Source: Candidatus Vecturithrix granuli
GTDB lineage: Bacteria > Moduliflexota > Moduliflexia > Moduliflexales > Moduliflexaceae
DNA length: 49,285 nt
NCBI GenBank assembly: GCA_000739535.1
Contig: DF820465.1
Span: 153,123 to 202,407, forward strand
Reading direction: 5' to 3'
Shown here: in pieces, positions 3,580 to 9,143 of the stretch
Numbering within the stretch: position 1 is the first letter of the stretch
Layout: the number at the start of each line of letters is the position of its first letter
The notes under the pieces: model-generated
What the model was told of the DNA's origin: nothing
What the model saw: the letters and a program-made list of their open reading frames with translations, nothing else
Databases searched by the model: none
Position numbers and translations under genes: made by a program

Positions 3580-3666
3580 AAACTACACGGATTGTATGTA
3601 CGAAGGATTGATGAAATCGTGATGTCTCGCATGACCTATCCTCCCTACATAAAATCCGTGTAGTTT
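3580..3666. repeat. Palindromic repeat (AAACTACA..GGATT type), copy 1
   Basis: Arms AACTACACGGATT...AAATCCGTGTAGTT enclose an inner GTACGAAGGAT/ATCCTCCCTAC pair. A second copy with the same layout lies at 13733-13837. Both sit just upstream of a start codon (the Nudix hydrolase here, the adenosyltransferase there). Confidence 0.65.
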
Positions 3667-3905
3667 TTTCAATATGCAAGGATTGTGACTATTTACCATA
3701 CCTTTTCGCCGTAGGCGATACAGTATTGTAGCAAAAATATATCTCTCCCCATCCTGCATTCGCCATAGGCGATATACAGCAACGCAACCGCTACGCGGTA
3801 GGAAGGGCGGCAGGAGCATTGTCCGGCAGCTACAATACTTGAAGCCCTACGGGCTAAGATTGCTAACTAGTTCTCAGATTATCATGAACTATGTCGTCAG
3901 TTGGG
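3667..3905. repeat. Intergenic cluster of short palindromes
   Basis: No gene is seen. An outer inverted pair (TACAGTATTGTAGC near 3719 and GCTACAATACT near 3827) encloses several short near-palindromes with a TAGG/TACG centre: CGCCGTAGGCG, CGCCATAGGCG, CCGCTACGCGG, followed by AGCCCTACGGGCT. Confidence 0.45.
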
Positions 3906-4811
3906 TTACATATTCTCTGAAAGTCTGGACAATCCTTTGAGAACCAGGGAGATCATTTCAGGAATATGCGGGGTTGCAAACAGTCGCTCGTTTTCTTCGA
4001 GATTCAAACCATTATGTAATCCTGCCACCCCTTCTTGCTGGAAAAAGGCGACCAGCGCATCGTAATCAATCGGTTCCTGACCTGTTTCAGGATGTTCTTT
4101 CACCTGGGCATTATAATAGGCCATAAACTCTTCATAGCCTGGATTTTGGGCGATTTGATATGCGGTGGTCAGGGGTTCCGGATGCGCTCCGTGCATGGCG
4201 TCGATCACCGCTTTGGCGCATCCGCCGAAGCCGCCGAGCAGAAACAGAGGTTTCTCATCGTGCAGACAAATGAAGGCTTCTTCGATCAGACCCGGATATT
4301 TGCCCTTATAGCCCGTGAGTCTGCCGCCTAATAATAACCGGGCATCGGTTTCCAAACTCATCTTTTCCCGCATCACCGTCAGGCAGCGCGCCCAGATGTA
4401 ACTATTTTCCGCTGAATTCGGATGAAGAAACTCTGTCGGATTGATTTGAAGGTCTGTAGGCGGATCTAAGGGTCTGAAATCGGCCACGCCTTTGAGTTCG
4501 GCTTTTTGCCGTATAGGCAGGTTTAAATGAATCGGCCAGGCTAAAAAGGTGATGACACGCTTATAAGGCGGCAGCCCCTGTTGATTATTGGCCTGCACCA
4601 GTTTAAATAAGGTTTCTGTAAACCCGCCGGCGCGAAGATCTCCGCCATACGCCAGCGACGAGCCGCTTGCCAGAAGATAGCGGGCAAATTCGACCATGGC
4701 ATCTTGTAAATGAATTTCGTTTAATCCTAAAGCCGGCAGATCCGGACTTTCAGAAATTGAGAGCCCGATACAATAATCATTGAAAAAAGAATGTTGGTGT
4801 GTTGTTTCCAT
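3906..4811 (-). CDS. Stand-alone SLOG (STALD-like) nucleotide-sensing protein
   Basis: A 301-residue soluble protein. Residues about 14-200 carry the Rossmann-like SLOG signature: a first strand with GLSISES, then the loop YGGDLRAGG (55-63), then LGGRLTGYKGKYPG (161-174) and EE (177-178), then LLGGFGG (191-197). In the SLOG superfamily these loops bind nucleotides or ADP-ribose-type ligands. STALD members are named for association with TIR and Sir2 proteins (ThsA of Thoeris is one). Unlike ThsA it has no fused effector, only a C-terminal helical tail of about 100 residues. It starts 4 bp after the ATPase-TIR stop codon, and its Shine-Dalgarno GGAGG overlaps that gene's last codons, so the two are translationally coupled. 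Family assignment is from motif recall and the precise subfamily is uncertain. Confidence 0.75.
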   Translation of the reverse strand: METTHQHSFFNDYCIGLSISESPDLPALGLNEIHLQDAMVEFARYLLASGSSLAYGGDLRAGGFTETLFKLVQANNQQGLPPYKRVITFLAWPIHLNLPIRQKAELKGVADFRPLDPPTDLQINPTEFLHPNSAENSYIWARCLTVMREKMSLETDARLLLGGRLTGYKGKYPGLIEEAFICLHDEKPLFLLGGFGGCAKAVIDAMHGAHPEPLTTAYQIAQNPGYEEFMAYYNAQVKEHPETGQEPIDYDALVAFFQQEGVAGLHNGLNLEENERLFATPHIPEMISLVLKGLSRLSENM

Positions 4812-4815
4812 GATC

Positions 4816-7017
4816 TTACCTCCGTAGAAACATGGGGGTTGTAAATTCCAGATCGGGTACCAGCGCTGACAGAATTTCCATTTCTTCCATGCCGATAGGG
4901 GGATCTGGATAAATAAGCATCTTGATGTTCTGTTGCTTGAGCGTTTTTTGAAGATGTAACAGCGTCAACAATTCCGGCGGGCGTGATGACCAATAGATTG
5001 TTTCAGGAAGATCGAAGAGTTGGCGAAGATCTTCGAAATACTGCCGTAAATAGACATCTTTCAAGACCTCATATAACAAGAGATCAAGGGCAGATTCAAT
5101 GGCCTGATCGTATAATTCCAGATTCTCTTGAATCTGATCCATCTTCCAACGCAGCGTCGCAACATTGCCAAGATACGGAAAACTGCGTTCTTCATTATTA
5201 CTAAGCGCATTGACGACCACCAGTGGACGTTCCATCTGTTTCGCCATCAAAATTTCGCGCCGGCACCACTCGCGCGAGGCATAAGCATCGGTTTGAATGG
5301 CTAACACGGCCGCATCCTGAATCTGCGCTTTGATTTCTTCGGCAAAGGAGTAACTCGGGGCAATATCATTGGCGTCAAAAAAGGACTTGAGTGCGGTTTT
5401 GCGGTACAGATAATCACGAAAATGTTCCGCAATATCCAATCCGTCGCGTTTGGCATGGCTCAAAAATAATTTGACCGGCGCAAAACTAACGTCTGTACCT
5501 GAAGGCACAACCGTTCGCTCTTGCGCCAACAGCAAGCGGCACAATTCATGGGTCAGGCTGCGAACCAGAGCCGCGGGCTGCCGTTCTTTGCCCAGATCGT
5601 GTACGCGAATAAAATTGACTTCCGGGACTCTGCTATATAGGTTAAAAGCATACAGACTCATGGAGACAGGAAACAGGCGATGCGGACTGTTCGGAGACTG
5701 AGTTTTTTCCCACAGGGTTCCTAAATAGGCGTCCCATCGATCGGAAGCGACCAGATGATCATCAACGAGGGCCACAACAACCGTATGGTGCGAGTCATCA
5801 AAGGGAATCGGTAACGGCGCACCGCTTTTCGCATCGCTCATATTCCGAAAAAAGAGGGGAATTCCAATTCTGCGCGAGACTGGATTCCTGACATCGCGCG
5901 TCAGCCAGGAATAGAGATAATTCGCAAACCTTTGGCCTTCTTCATAGTGCGGATGCCAAACGATATACACTGTCAATCGAGGCTGATAATGATCTGGTAT
6001 TCCTATAAATTCTTCTTTCTGAGGCTTTTTTTTCCGTTGTTCTTGTGGTAAAAATTTCTTTAGAGCGTTAAAGAGTCCATTATAAGATTTTTCTAACTCT
6101 AAAGATCGCTTTTTATATGAATCTTTTTGTGTTACTGCAATTATTTCTTCAAAAGCATAGTACGGTACATAAGGGATCTCTATTTCTTCTAAAAAACTCC
6201 TTCTATCTGTCTTATTATTTTTATCTTTTACTTCAAATAGTTCTTCAGGTAAAAAATCCAGAAATCTTTCTTTTACTTTTTGGCGAAATACATTAAGCTT
6301 TTCAGTTTCAGAAACTCGTTCAATTCTTGAAGGAACTATAACGGTCTTCAATTCTCTATTATGGCGTAATTCCGGAAGGCGATGATCTGAAAAGCTTTCT
6401 ACCATGTGAAGGGTTCCATCGATATTCTGTTCGTTTGCCGCACAAAACAGCACGACTACATCTGCTAGTTGATATGTACAAACTCCTCCCATTTCAGTTA
6501 CACCTGTCCGGCTATCTATCAGGACAACATCAAATCTTTCATTAAATTGCTCACGTAACCATTCAAAATAAACTTCTCCCTCCCAATTTTGATAAAAATC
6601 CTGCCAATCAAACCTTTTAACTTCATTTGAATATTCCAAAAATTGCTTACCTTTTCTTTGCCCCGCAGAAAGAAAGGACAGCTTTGCCTGATTATCTTTG
6701 TCTTCGTTTTTATTAGGAGTTATATCAACTATATATTCTTCAACGATATCATATACAGGAAAGAATGATGTTCCCTCTTCTGGCTGAAAATCCAATAGCT
6801 TCTCTTTGTAATCCTGTAACATATTCATGATTCCACGATATGCTAAAGCATTATCAATTTGTTTCGTAGAGAATAAAAACCGTTCAAGTCCCGGAGCCTC
6901 CAAATCCCAATCTACAATAAGTACTTTCCACCCATCATTATACATCAAATGAGCAATATTAACCAGAGCCATAGAACGGCCAACTCCGCCTTTATATGAA
7001 TAAAACGTATAAATCAT
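4816..7017 (-). CDS. KGGVGR-variant ParA/MinD-like ATPase fused to two TIR-type domains
   Basis: 733 residues. Domain 1 (1-about 325) is a MinD/ParA-type P-loop ATPase. Its deviant Walker A is KGGVGRS (9-15) where KGGVGKT is usual, followed by VLIVDWDLEAPG (32-43) and a Walker-B-like VLIDSRTG (165-172). A charged linker (KKKPQKEE) follows. Domain 2 (about 346-500) begins LTVYIVWHPHYEEGQRFA and looks TIR-like, but shows no clear catalytic glutamate. Domain 3 (514-about 630) is a canonical TIR domain: VKLFLSHAKRDG, FFDANDI, and WCRREIL carrying the likely NADase glutamate E588. A tail of about 100 residues (631-733) is unassigned. Base composition changes from about 30% GC over the ATPase half to about 50% over the TIR half near 5990-6000. 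The gene starts 6 bp after the trypsin-like gene and runs into the SLOG gene. Confidence 0.88.
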   Translation of the reverse strand: MIYTFYSYKGGVGRSMALVNIAHLMYNDGWKVLIVDWDLEAPGLERFLFSTKQIDNALAYRGIMNMLQDYKEKLLDFQPEEGTSFFPVYDIVEEYIVDITPNKNEDKDNQAKLSFLSAGQRKGKQFLEYSNEVKRFDWQDFYQNWEGEVYFEWLREQFNERFDVVLIDSRTGVTEMGGVCTYQLADVVVLFCAANEQNIDGTLHMVESFSDHRLPELRHNRELKTVIVPSRIERVSETEKLNVFRQKVKERFLDFLPEELFEVKDKNNKTDRRSFLEEIEIPYVPYYAFEEIIAVTQKDSYKKRSLELEKSYNGLFNALKKFLPQEQRKKKPQKEEFIGIPDHYQPRLTVYIVWHPHYEEGQRFANYLYSWLTRDVRNPVSRRIGIPLFFRNMSDAKSGAPLPIPFDDSHHTVVVALVDDHLVASDRWDAYLGTLWEKTQSPNSPHRLFPVSMSLYAFNLYSRVPEVNFIRVHDLGKERQPAALVRSLTHELCRLLLAQERTVVPSGTDVSFAPVKLFLSHAKRDGLDIAEHFRDYLYRKTALKSFFDANDIAPSYSFAEEIKAQIQDAAVLAIQTDAYASREWCRREILMAKQMERPLVVVNALSNNEERSFPYLGNVATLRWKMDQIQENLELYDQAIESALDLLLYEVLKDVYLRQYFEDLRQLFDLPETIYWSSRPPELLTLLHLQKTLKQQNIKMLIYPDPPIGMEEMEILSALVPDLEFTTPMFLRR

Positions 7018-7023
7018 AATTTG

Positions 7024-8442
7024 CTACTCCCCTGTAATTTTCTCTTGGATACCTGTTTTTTCTGGTCTTCCCTTTTGCATTTGATACCTTTGCTCTTTAG
7101 TCGGAACACTTCTTCTGATTCTAAAATTAGCTAAAGTTGATATCAGCCTTCGACGTAAGCAGCGATCTCCATTTACATCAAATTCATGAAGGGCCTCAGC
7201 ATTTTCTTCAAATGCCGCAAAGGGAATTTTCATGAAAGATTTATATATGTGACTTGAGAGTAATTCATCTATTTTAGAAGCTTTTTGCTTGTCGAGAGGT
7301 GAAATTACGATCAGCGCAATTTGATCAGGATGCCCCATAACCTGACTGTGAGTTAGTCCTTTTTCTAATGTAGGGTGATACATTGAAACAGTATCAATAA
7401 TTAAAATTCCCCCCTGGTTACGAAGTCTATTAGTAATTGTAGTGTTTTGTTCTTCTGAAAAGAAGTCATCAGACAAATAATCAATGTAAATTTCTTCATC
7501 TTCTTCTAATTTAAAATGTTTATTTAACCTATCTACAGCATCCTCTATAATTTCCTTTATTGATTGCCGATCTGTTCCTAAAGGGATCCATTCATCTCTG
7601 GATCTTCCATAATACGATTTAATTTCATCTTTCTTCAAACCGAGAACTTTTTTTAACTCCTTAAATTGTTTAAATTCATCACACCTGTTGTTATGAAAAA
7701 CTTTTCCCGAATCTAATTCCTCAACTTCGCTCTGATTCATAGCAATAACAGCAATTTGAATTTTAGTTCCATTTTTAGGTGTTTTGGGTTTTTCTCTAAT
7801 AAGATCGGAAGGTTTCTTTCCTATTTCTTCCCAAAATTTTTTAAGTTCGACTAGGTTCCATATAGAAATAGCCTGACCTGTTTTTCTTTGTCGCTCTCTT
7901 GTATTTACAATTCCAAGAATTTCGTTGGTTTTGGCGTCTATTACAGGTGAACCGCTGTACCCGGGCGCTAAATAATAATCTTCTTCTTCCATTTGATCAA
8001 TCTTCAAATCCCAGGCAGGATAGTGTTTTGTAGAATCTTTAGGTTTTAAATTAAAATTTACAATCAATGTACCTTCAAGAGGAAGACATTTGGAACTCTC
8101 ATGGACATATTCTTTATATCCTATAATACGTATTTTAAGTTTTCTGGTTCCTCCTTTTATTAGAGAATAAATATTTTCAATTTTTTTATATCCTGTAATT
8201 TTTAAAATAGCTAAATCTAAATCTTTTGCATTGCTATAATCGACTACTATTGCTATTTTTCCACTAATTTTCACATGATCATCTCCCCCTACACTATCTA
8301 CAACATGCCTACAAGTTACTACATACGTATCTTTTTCATGTTGGTGAATAATAAAACCGGTACCAAATGCTTTTTCTCCTTCTTTGTTACTTTCAATCAA
8401 AACAACTGGCTCCATCAGACGTTCATCGAATAGATCTTCCAT
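7024..8442 (-). CDS. Trypsin-like serine protease with long unknown C-terminal region
   Basis: A 472-residue protein without a signal peptide, so probably cytoplasmic. Residues 10-about 205 are a trypsin-fold protease with the likely triad H46 (TCRHVVDS), D76 (DLDLAIL) and S163 (GYSGSP). Residues about 225-472 form an unrecognised alpha/beta region with hydrophobic strands such as GGILIIDTVSMYHP and IALIVISP. Proteases of this kind act as activatable effectors or processors in NTP-dependent bacterial conflict systems. The gene is very AT-rich (some 60-bp stretches have only 15% GC), unlike its neighbours, which suggests recent transfer. The start has a GAGGAG ribosome site. It leads a tight operon with the ATPase-TIR and SLOG genes. 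Its substrate is unknown; the TIR protein is an obvious candidate. Confidence 0.82.
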   Translation of the reverse strand: MEDLFDERLMEPVVLIESNKEGEKAFGTGFIIHQHEKDTYVVTCRHVVDSVGGDDHVKISGKIAIVVDYSNAKDLDLAILKITGYKKIENIYSLIKGGTRKLKIRIIGYKEYVHESSKCLPLEGTLIVNFNLKPKDSTKHYPAWDLKIDQMEEEDYYLAPGYSGSPVIDAKTNEILGIVNTRERQRKTGQAISIWNLVELKKFWEEIGKKPSDLIREKPKTPKNGTKIQIAVIAMNQSEVEELDSGKVFHNNRCDEFKQFKELKKVLGLKKDEIKSYYGRSRDEWIPLGTDRQSIKEIIEDAVDRLNKHFKLEEDEEIYIDYLSDDFFSEEQNTTITNRLRNQGGILIIDTVSMYHPTLEKGLTHSQVMGHPDQIALIVISPLDKQKASKIDELLSSHIYKSFMKIPFAAFEENAEALHEFDVNGDRCLRRRLISTLANFRIRRSVPTKEQRYQMQKGRPEKTGIQEKITGE

Positions 8443-8493: not shown

Positions 8494-8531
8494 GGTAGTT
8501 CCGGGAATTTCATACCTCATTCCCGAAACAA
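8494..8531. repeat. Palindromic repeat (TTCGGGAAT type)
   Basis: An inverted pair GGTAGTTCCGGGAATTTC / CATTCCCGAAACAAC lies between the protease and TRYPCO1-like genes. It is a short relative of the palindromes at 1913 and 9995. It could affect read-through between the two genes, but has no T-run. Confidence 0.5.
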
Positions 8532-8572
8532 CTTTTCTACAGACATTTTAGAAAAACCGTGAACATTAAGTC

Positions 8573-8899
8573 TTAGGAATTCTCGTTTTCTTTAGGTTTA
8601 AGGGTTAATTTCACATTTACATTCGCCCCTGCTTTGGCCTTTGTGACATAAAGATTTCCTTCTGCTTCAAAAGCCAGACCTAATTCTACCTCAGCCTGTT
8701 CAATCATCATTTCTTTATTTAATTCCTGCCAGACCGAAATGACTGGACGACAGACCTTGAGGAGAATCGGTTTAATCTTCTCAATGCTCTCTTGCACTTC
8801 TTTGGCATAATCGATGGAAGCTATTTGCTCAACTTCATTCGGCGAAGCTTCAACTTCCACTAAAGTTCCATCTTGTAATTTAATAAGCTTTGTTCCCAT
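8573..8899 (-). CDS. Small TRYPCO1-like protein (trypsin-co-occurring domain)
   Basis: A 108-residue soluble protein. It opens with a beta-hairpin-like KLIKLQDGTLVEVEA, continues with a predicted helical middle (about 25-70), and ends with two beta-like segments (EVELGLAFEAEGN and ANVNVKLTLKP). This matches my memory of TRYPCO1, a small domain encoded next to trypsin-like proteases in conflict systems (described by Aravind and co-workers). It lies 130 bp upstream of such a protease on the same strand. It has its own AAAGGAG ribosome site 6 nt before the ATG. It may hold the protease in check or act as its first substrate; that is inference. GC is near 40%, between the AT-rich protease and the 50% host-like genes. 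Confidence 0.72.
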   Translation of the reverse strand: MGTKLIKLQDGTLVEVEASPNEVEQIASIDYAKEVQESIEKIKPILLKVCRPVISVWQELNKEMMIEQAEVELGLAFEAEGNLYVTKAKAGANVNVKLTLKPKENENS

Positions 8900-9143
8900 A
8901 TCATGCTCCTTTCTTGGTGTTCACAAAAATCGTGTAAATTGTGGCTGATGAACAATAAGCGATACTTTTCCATTAAATAATAGAAGGTGTCAAGTATAAA
9001 CTACATGAATCGCCCCAATTTTTTGAAAAAAGAAGAGAATTTTTCAAAAAATCATTTGACTCCTTTTAGCGGTCAATTATCGTGTCTTTTTCTTGATGCA
9101 TATTTTACCATATTGATGTTTTTTTGAGGAAGCAAGACACATA

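Follow-up and report, generated by a model that had tools for sequence, protein, structure and literature searches.

A sharp composition seam in an ATPase-TIR gene of Candidatus Vecturithrix granuli suggests the fusion of a foreign protease-ATPase front end to a host-like TIR-TIR and SLOG module

The window analyzed here, a 49,285-nucleotide stretch of contig DF820465.1 (assembly GCA_000739535.1, Candidatus Vecturithrix granuli), contains on its minus strand a gene of 733 codons (4816-7017) in which an ATPase is followed by TIR-type domains and the base composition changes abruptly. Is this change a recombination junction, as the initial annotation had proposed, and, if so, which modules were joined? 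The gene belongs to an operon transcribed from the minus strand in the order Trypco1, trypsin-type gene, fused gene and SLOG LD_cluster2, and the fused gene is separated from its neighbors by 4 nt (to the SLOG gene) and 6 nt. The features referred to below are the following:

8573..8899, minus strand: Trypco1 (CU044_2847 family) gene; PF19493, 41.6 bits (cut-off 24.6), and NF041216, 46.9 bits
8495..8532, no strand assigned: host-wide REP-like palindrome between the Trypco1 and protease genes, from repeat matches in the host
7024..8442, minus strand: trypsin-type partner gene with a Trypsin_2 domain at residues 27-178; PF13365, 38.6 bits (cut-off 27.6)
within 7024..8442, minus strand: second domain of the partner gene, residues ~225-400, common to the genes adjoining the nearest ATPases
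6052..7017, minus strand: ATPase module, codons 1-322, a KGGVGR-motif P-loop ATPase (NF047398)
5998..6051, minus strand: linker, codons 323-340, PQEQRKKKPQKEEFIGIP, Lys-rich and on the AT-rich side
5910..5997, minus strand: composition seam (GC3 support interval), with the change point best at codon 347
4816..5997, minus strand: TIR-TIR module, codons 341-733 plus stop, from relatives and a structure model
5062..5475, minus strand: second TIR domain, codons ~515-652; PF13676, 47.3 bits (cut-off 28), SARM1-like fold
3906..4811, minus strand: SLOG LD_cluster2 gene; PF18163, 359.7 bits (gathering cut-off 25.3)

The composition break was confirmed and is unusually sharp. Counted per 60 nt, GC was 0.48 (5821-5880), 0.50 (5881-5940), 0.42 (5941-6000) and 0.30 (6001-6060), followed by 0.28 (6061-6120), 0.33 (6121-6180) and 0.22 (6181-6240), in agreement with the figures previously counted by eye; in a coarser profile, it fell from 0.487 (5761-6000) to 0.283 (6001-6240). 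The low values continue through the protease gene to about 8440, as had been noted, with a GC of 0.338 over 5998-8440. The Trypco1 gene is intermediate (0.391), and 8900-9143 is AT-rich intergenic DNA. In a change-point test on the fused gene, GC3 rose from 0.248 to 0.510 at codon 347 (position ~5979), the best change point, with an LLR of 27.1 and a 2-log-likelihood-unit support interval covering codons 340-369 (5910-5997). The initial annotation had located the break at 5940-6060, inside the Lys-rich linker: the step is real, but its statistical interval lies at the low-coordinate edge of that range, and the linker sits on the AT-rich side of it.

When synonymous codons were permuted with the protein kept (n = 1000), the maximum LLR was 11.8, against 27.1 in the real gene. 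The first and second codon positions alone gave no significant step (5.3 versus a shuffle maximum of 9.15), so a Lys-rich protein cannot account for the step. As a host control, 800 kb of the same genome were used, and none of its approximately 197 gap-free genes of at least 400 codons had an LLR above 10.2; the five values in the sample that exceeded 10.2 all came from loci with runs of N. The GC of this sample is 0.4695 and its GC3 is 0.50 ± 0.09, and the segment 6001-9120 (GC 0.343) is more AT-rich than any of its 3-kb windows (minimum 0.36). Over the whole four-gene operon a single step was found, which falls in the fused gene (codon 348; LLR 55.7), and a second change point added 4.8. With respect to codon usage, the protease and ATPase lie at about the 2nd percentile of the host genes, TIR-TIR and SLOG at the 87th-90th, and Trypco1 at the 16th; the front is codon-foreign and the back is host-like. 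The proposal of an AT-rich protease-ATPase front and a host-like TIR-TIR-SLOG back holds in composition and codon usage, with only the upstream Trypco1 gene being intermediate.

The relatives of the TIR-TIR part were collected by tblastn and a genome-wide scan, and 88 were obtained, 8 from plasmids and 80 chromosomal or from MAGs. An N-terminal ATPase extension was present in none of the 88 (80 genome, 8 plasmid), the open frame stops no more than a few tens of codons upstream of the match, and no homologue of the window ATPase, protease or Trypco1 was found in the 80 loci. The native starts of 87 of these genes correspond to window codons 338 (median farthest possible start) to 340 (median nearest). 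In nearly all of the 80 loci a SLOG match adjoins TIR-TIR or shares its protein, and TIR-TIR plus LD_cluster2 SLOG is a widespread module, encoded by two genes or as one protein (L010-L013, L017, L019, L020, L023-L102). PADLOC and NCBIfam models scanned against this module gave only weak partial TIR matches, and no relative was found in the viral contigs searched. Residues 341-733 cluster with the TIR-TIR proteins of deltaproteobacterial, Olavius-symbiont and Bryobacterales MAGs (SH-aLRT 92), the nearest relatives being deltaproteobacterial or acidobacterial, and no ATPase homologue was found in the deltaproteobacterial and Olavius-symbiont MAGs. In both the TIR-TIR and the SLOG trees the closest relative is L023 (identity 45% and 50%, respectively), and L026 and L037 lie near; the back end has therefore been inherited as one unit.

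A ThsB-like TIR gene lies near TIR-TIR in 48 of the 67 loci with enough flank (~70%), and the ThsB-like profile gave no match in the host-genome control. A clean loss of this partner in the window lineage was considered and is weakened by L023, L026 and L037, which also have no ThsB-like neighbor, L023 and L037 being incomplete loci in this comparison. Upstream of the closest relatives there are genes of 177 aa (L026 6453-6986) and 609 aa (L023 178-2007) with no Pfam match, which are possible other partners of the module. The structure model of TIR-TIR (pLDDT 89.4, pTM 0.90) was also compared with known folds, and the second TIR aligned with the SARM1 TIR over 124 residues (Z 16.4, rmsd 2.3; VIA-align). 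Glu588 of the WCxxE motif, which would be the catalytic Glu as in other TIR enzymes, is invariant in 36 of 36 rows. In the model, the second domain has a TIR fold with an intact Glu motif, and it is predicted to be of the NADase type. The fold search bore mainly on this domain and barely covered the first one, which is called TIR-like from an earlier reader's suggestion and the Rossmann-like order of elements in the model.

At the front end, the ATPase was identified by NF047398 (149.6 bits over residues 2-208, curated cut-off 90) and has the motifs KGGVGRS, DWDLEAPG and VLIDSRTG. This half is rare, with few matches among about 1,490 genomes. The closest ATPases belong to a cyanobacterial genome (L158, 46% identity) and a Pseudanabaena plasmid (L014, 40%), and residues 1-325 form a clade with both (support 89/93). 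Their C-termini are EAD10 plus NTPase in L014 and a helical tail in L158, and further homologues are fused to repeats, to an FGE-sulfatase, or to an unrelated TIR with extra domains. Moreover, the gene directly upstream of the ATPase in L158 and L014 matches residues 225-384 of the window protease (29-30%), while its N-terminus differs from that of the window protein, being EAD1 in L158. Since the partner domain and the ATPase are kept and the N- and C-terminal ends differ, both constitute the core, and the outer ends are exchangeable. The partner domain, of ~160-175 residues and without a Pfam family, was located at 7024-7770 (minus strand) in the window, L014 3661-4989 and L158 3615-4829. 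A resemblance of this domain to FxsC was rejected (13.7 bits, under the cut-off), and a structure of the protease/partner protein from a two-row alignment was set aside (pLDDT 32).

No GC3 step was detected in 13 homologues of the ATPase half (largest LLR 5.6 versus 27.1), one of which lies in this same genome and has a GC3 of 0.48/0.47. The host also has a second KGGVGR ATPase-TIR gene (490 aa) adjoining a 210-aa TIR-like-looking gene (L002 1000-3116, C20). The ATPase-TIR gene resembles the fused gene in carrying a TIR_2 domain behind a KGGVGR ATPase, and differs in that its ATPase is 31-33% identical, its single TIR is a different one, and its composition is host-like without a step.

The two halves have different nearest relatives (cyanobacterial for the front; deltaproteobacterial, Olavius-symbiont and Bryobacterales for the back), no GC step is shared by their homologues (it is missing from the 13 ATPase homologues, and in the TIR-TIR relatives the ATPase half itself is lacking), and the front is foreign while the back is host-like in codon usage. 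These results therefore support recombination, as had been suggested. Moreover, the silent-site step (347) coincides with the module boundary and the native TIR-TIR start (338-340); as an AT-rich ATPase front is fused near the normal start of a TIR gene that stands alone in all 88 relatives examined, the change in composition reflects a real module swap. The gene is probably a natural chimera, in which a host-like TIR-TIR plus SLOG module was joined in frame to an AT-rich, horizontally acquired protease-ATPase front end.

As the simplest history, we infer that the AT-rich front end would have been acquired beside a host-like TIR-TIR-SLOG operon and fused to it in frame, with the TIR-TIR and SLOG module losing its own start. 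The fusion point would be the native TIR-TIR N-terminus or lie within a few codons of it, and the front end would comprise the trypsin-type partner gene and the KGGVGR ATPase, plus Trypco1 with its intermediate composition. The linker (residues 323-340) aligns with neither the ATPase nor the TIR-TIR family and is possibly former leader or intergenic DNA that is now read through. A former start codon at ATA339 is suggestive by position only and is not claimed.

No target duplication or repeat was found at the joint, and a search for mobile-element ends gave no convincing direct or inverted repeats pairing it with the upstream edge. Around the operon, a dispersed repeat of ~190 nt lies just downstream of the SLOG gene (3684-3873; ~40 further host matches, 69-96% identity), beside 29-nt inverted-repeat arms at 3580-3666. 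The palindrome at 8495-8532, GTTGTTTCGGGAAT...ATTCCCGAAACAAC, has at least nine copies in 800 kb of the host, and it may either delimit the foreign DNA upstream or have been inserted later. In genome G001, from the same family, the flanking S1 gene is present with other neighbors on both sides and no synteny there, so it offers no empty site for comparison. The back end was not found in sister genomes, so only its composition marks it as resident.

An alternative is an older fusion, formed in another lineage, the whole five-module operon having been received with the step already in place from a donor whose back end matched the host GC. The packing of the four genes into one tight operon, as well as the absence of either half from the three nearest genomes, would fit such a transfer. 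We consider it unlikely, as the codon usage of the back end fits the host closely and neither the 88 TIR-TIR loci nor an ATPase-half search of approximately 1,490 genomes yielded another carrier of the fusion. That lack of a second genome also means that the joint is known from one metagenome-type assembly (contamination estimate 10.75%), and an assembler joining two unrelated sequences would likewise produce a fusion unique in the sample, the more so in a metagenome-like bin with scaffold gaps. An error of this kind is nevertheless very improbable, because the window contains no N, one open frame is kept across a joint that falls at a domain boundary, and host-wide dispersed repeats flank it on both sides (3684-3873 and 8495-8532); furthermore, host composition resumes on either side, and the joint is carried on a 930 kb contig. 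Finally, the step could have arisen without any recombination, from selection or amino-acid content, given the Lys-rich linker and an ATPase family that might always be AT-rich. This can practically be discarded, since the GC3 signal outlasts the amino-acid-preserving permutation, GC1+2 gave no significant step, and the ATPase homologues, even the one in the same genome, lack it. The in-frame fusion of a foreign front end to a host-like back end is the reading preferred here.

The operon was also compared with known systems. As in the Trypco1-trypsin and NTPase-based conflict systems that Kaur et al. (2020; PMC7159879) described, the Trypco1 gene adjoins a trypsin-type peptidase gene and EAD domains occur in relatives; that work also describes MinD/ParA-like SIMIBI domains and exchangeable effectors, which the window operon resembles. 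Unlike those systems, the window ATPase is fused to a TIR-TIR from another module, and no VMAP, MoxR or vWA domain of the VMAP ternary system was found when the operon and neighboring genes were scanned with Pfam. Its back end shares with the TIR-TIR plus LD_cluster2 SLOG modules the sequence of both genes, their order and the nearest relative, whereas those modules start at the TIR-TIR N-terminus and frequently have a ThsB-like gene nearby, which this locus and its closest relatives lack. The combination of TIR and SLOG recalls the logic of Thoeris (ThsB TIR plus a ThsA SIR2-SLOG or macro effector), but the window SLOG belongs to another cluster, and neither a SIR2 nor a macro domain was found in the operon and the neighboring genes scanned. 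A ThsB-type TIR (PF08937) was absent from the 16 kb examined, with one match elsewhere in the host genome, and the type III model ThcB4 (NF058526) gave 37.4 bits, covering the TIR part only, against a cut-off of 220. Tuck et al. (2025; PMC12799240) described defence systems in which a trypsin-like protease unit was gained through fusion or linkage, as may be the case here, but the protease partner there is an MBL nuclease, and here a KGGVGR ATPase is fused to TIR-TIR.

NTPase- or protease-gated release of effectors has been predicted, including cases of Trypco1 adjoining trypsin-like peptidases (Kaur et al., 2020; PMC7159879), and proteolytic activation of the effector has been shown in systems with acquired trypsin-like protease units (Tuck et al., 2025; PMC12799240). 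By analogy with these systems, the protease/partner protein and the ATPase would form a sensing and switching unit. Infection or proteolysis would alter the nucleotide state or oligomerization of the ATPase, and this change would cluster and activate the second TIR, because TIR-TIR is now covalently attached to it. The activated second TIR would consume NAD+ or make an ADP-ribose signal, and the SLOG protein might bind the nucleotide product and tune or relay the response. As the initial annotation had proposed, a swapped switch ahead of a kept effector is plausible, and such a swap might serve to diversify a defence system. We tentatively suggest, at somewhat less than even confidence, that a front-end swap has brought a TIR-TIR/SLOG effector, usually accompanied by a separate upstream partner (ThsB-like or other), under the covalent control of a recent, foreign protease/KGGVGR-ATPase switch.

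Conflict systems are known to shuffle modules; the fusion and its preserved seam are new in this sample, and the seam, which maps to within ~30 codons, may point to a recent swap. Modular exchange in bacterial immunity has mostly been inferred from old, divergent architectures, and here one seam is visible in silent sites. The unit of exchange would be a sensor/switch with its partner gene, placed ahead of an intact effector operon, and the finding raises the question of whether, once covalently coupled to the ATPase, the TIR-TIR effector responds to a new trigger.
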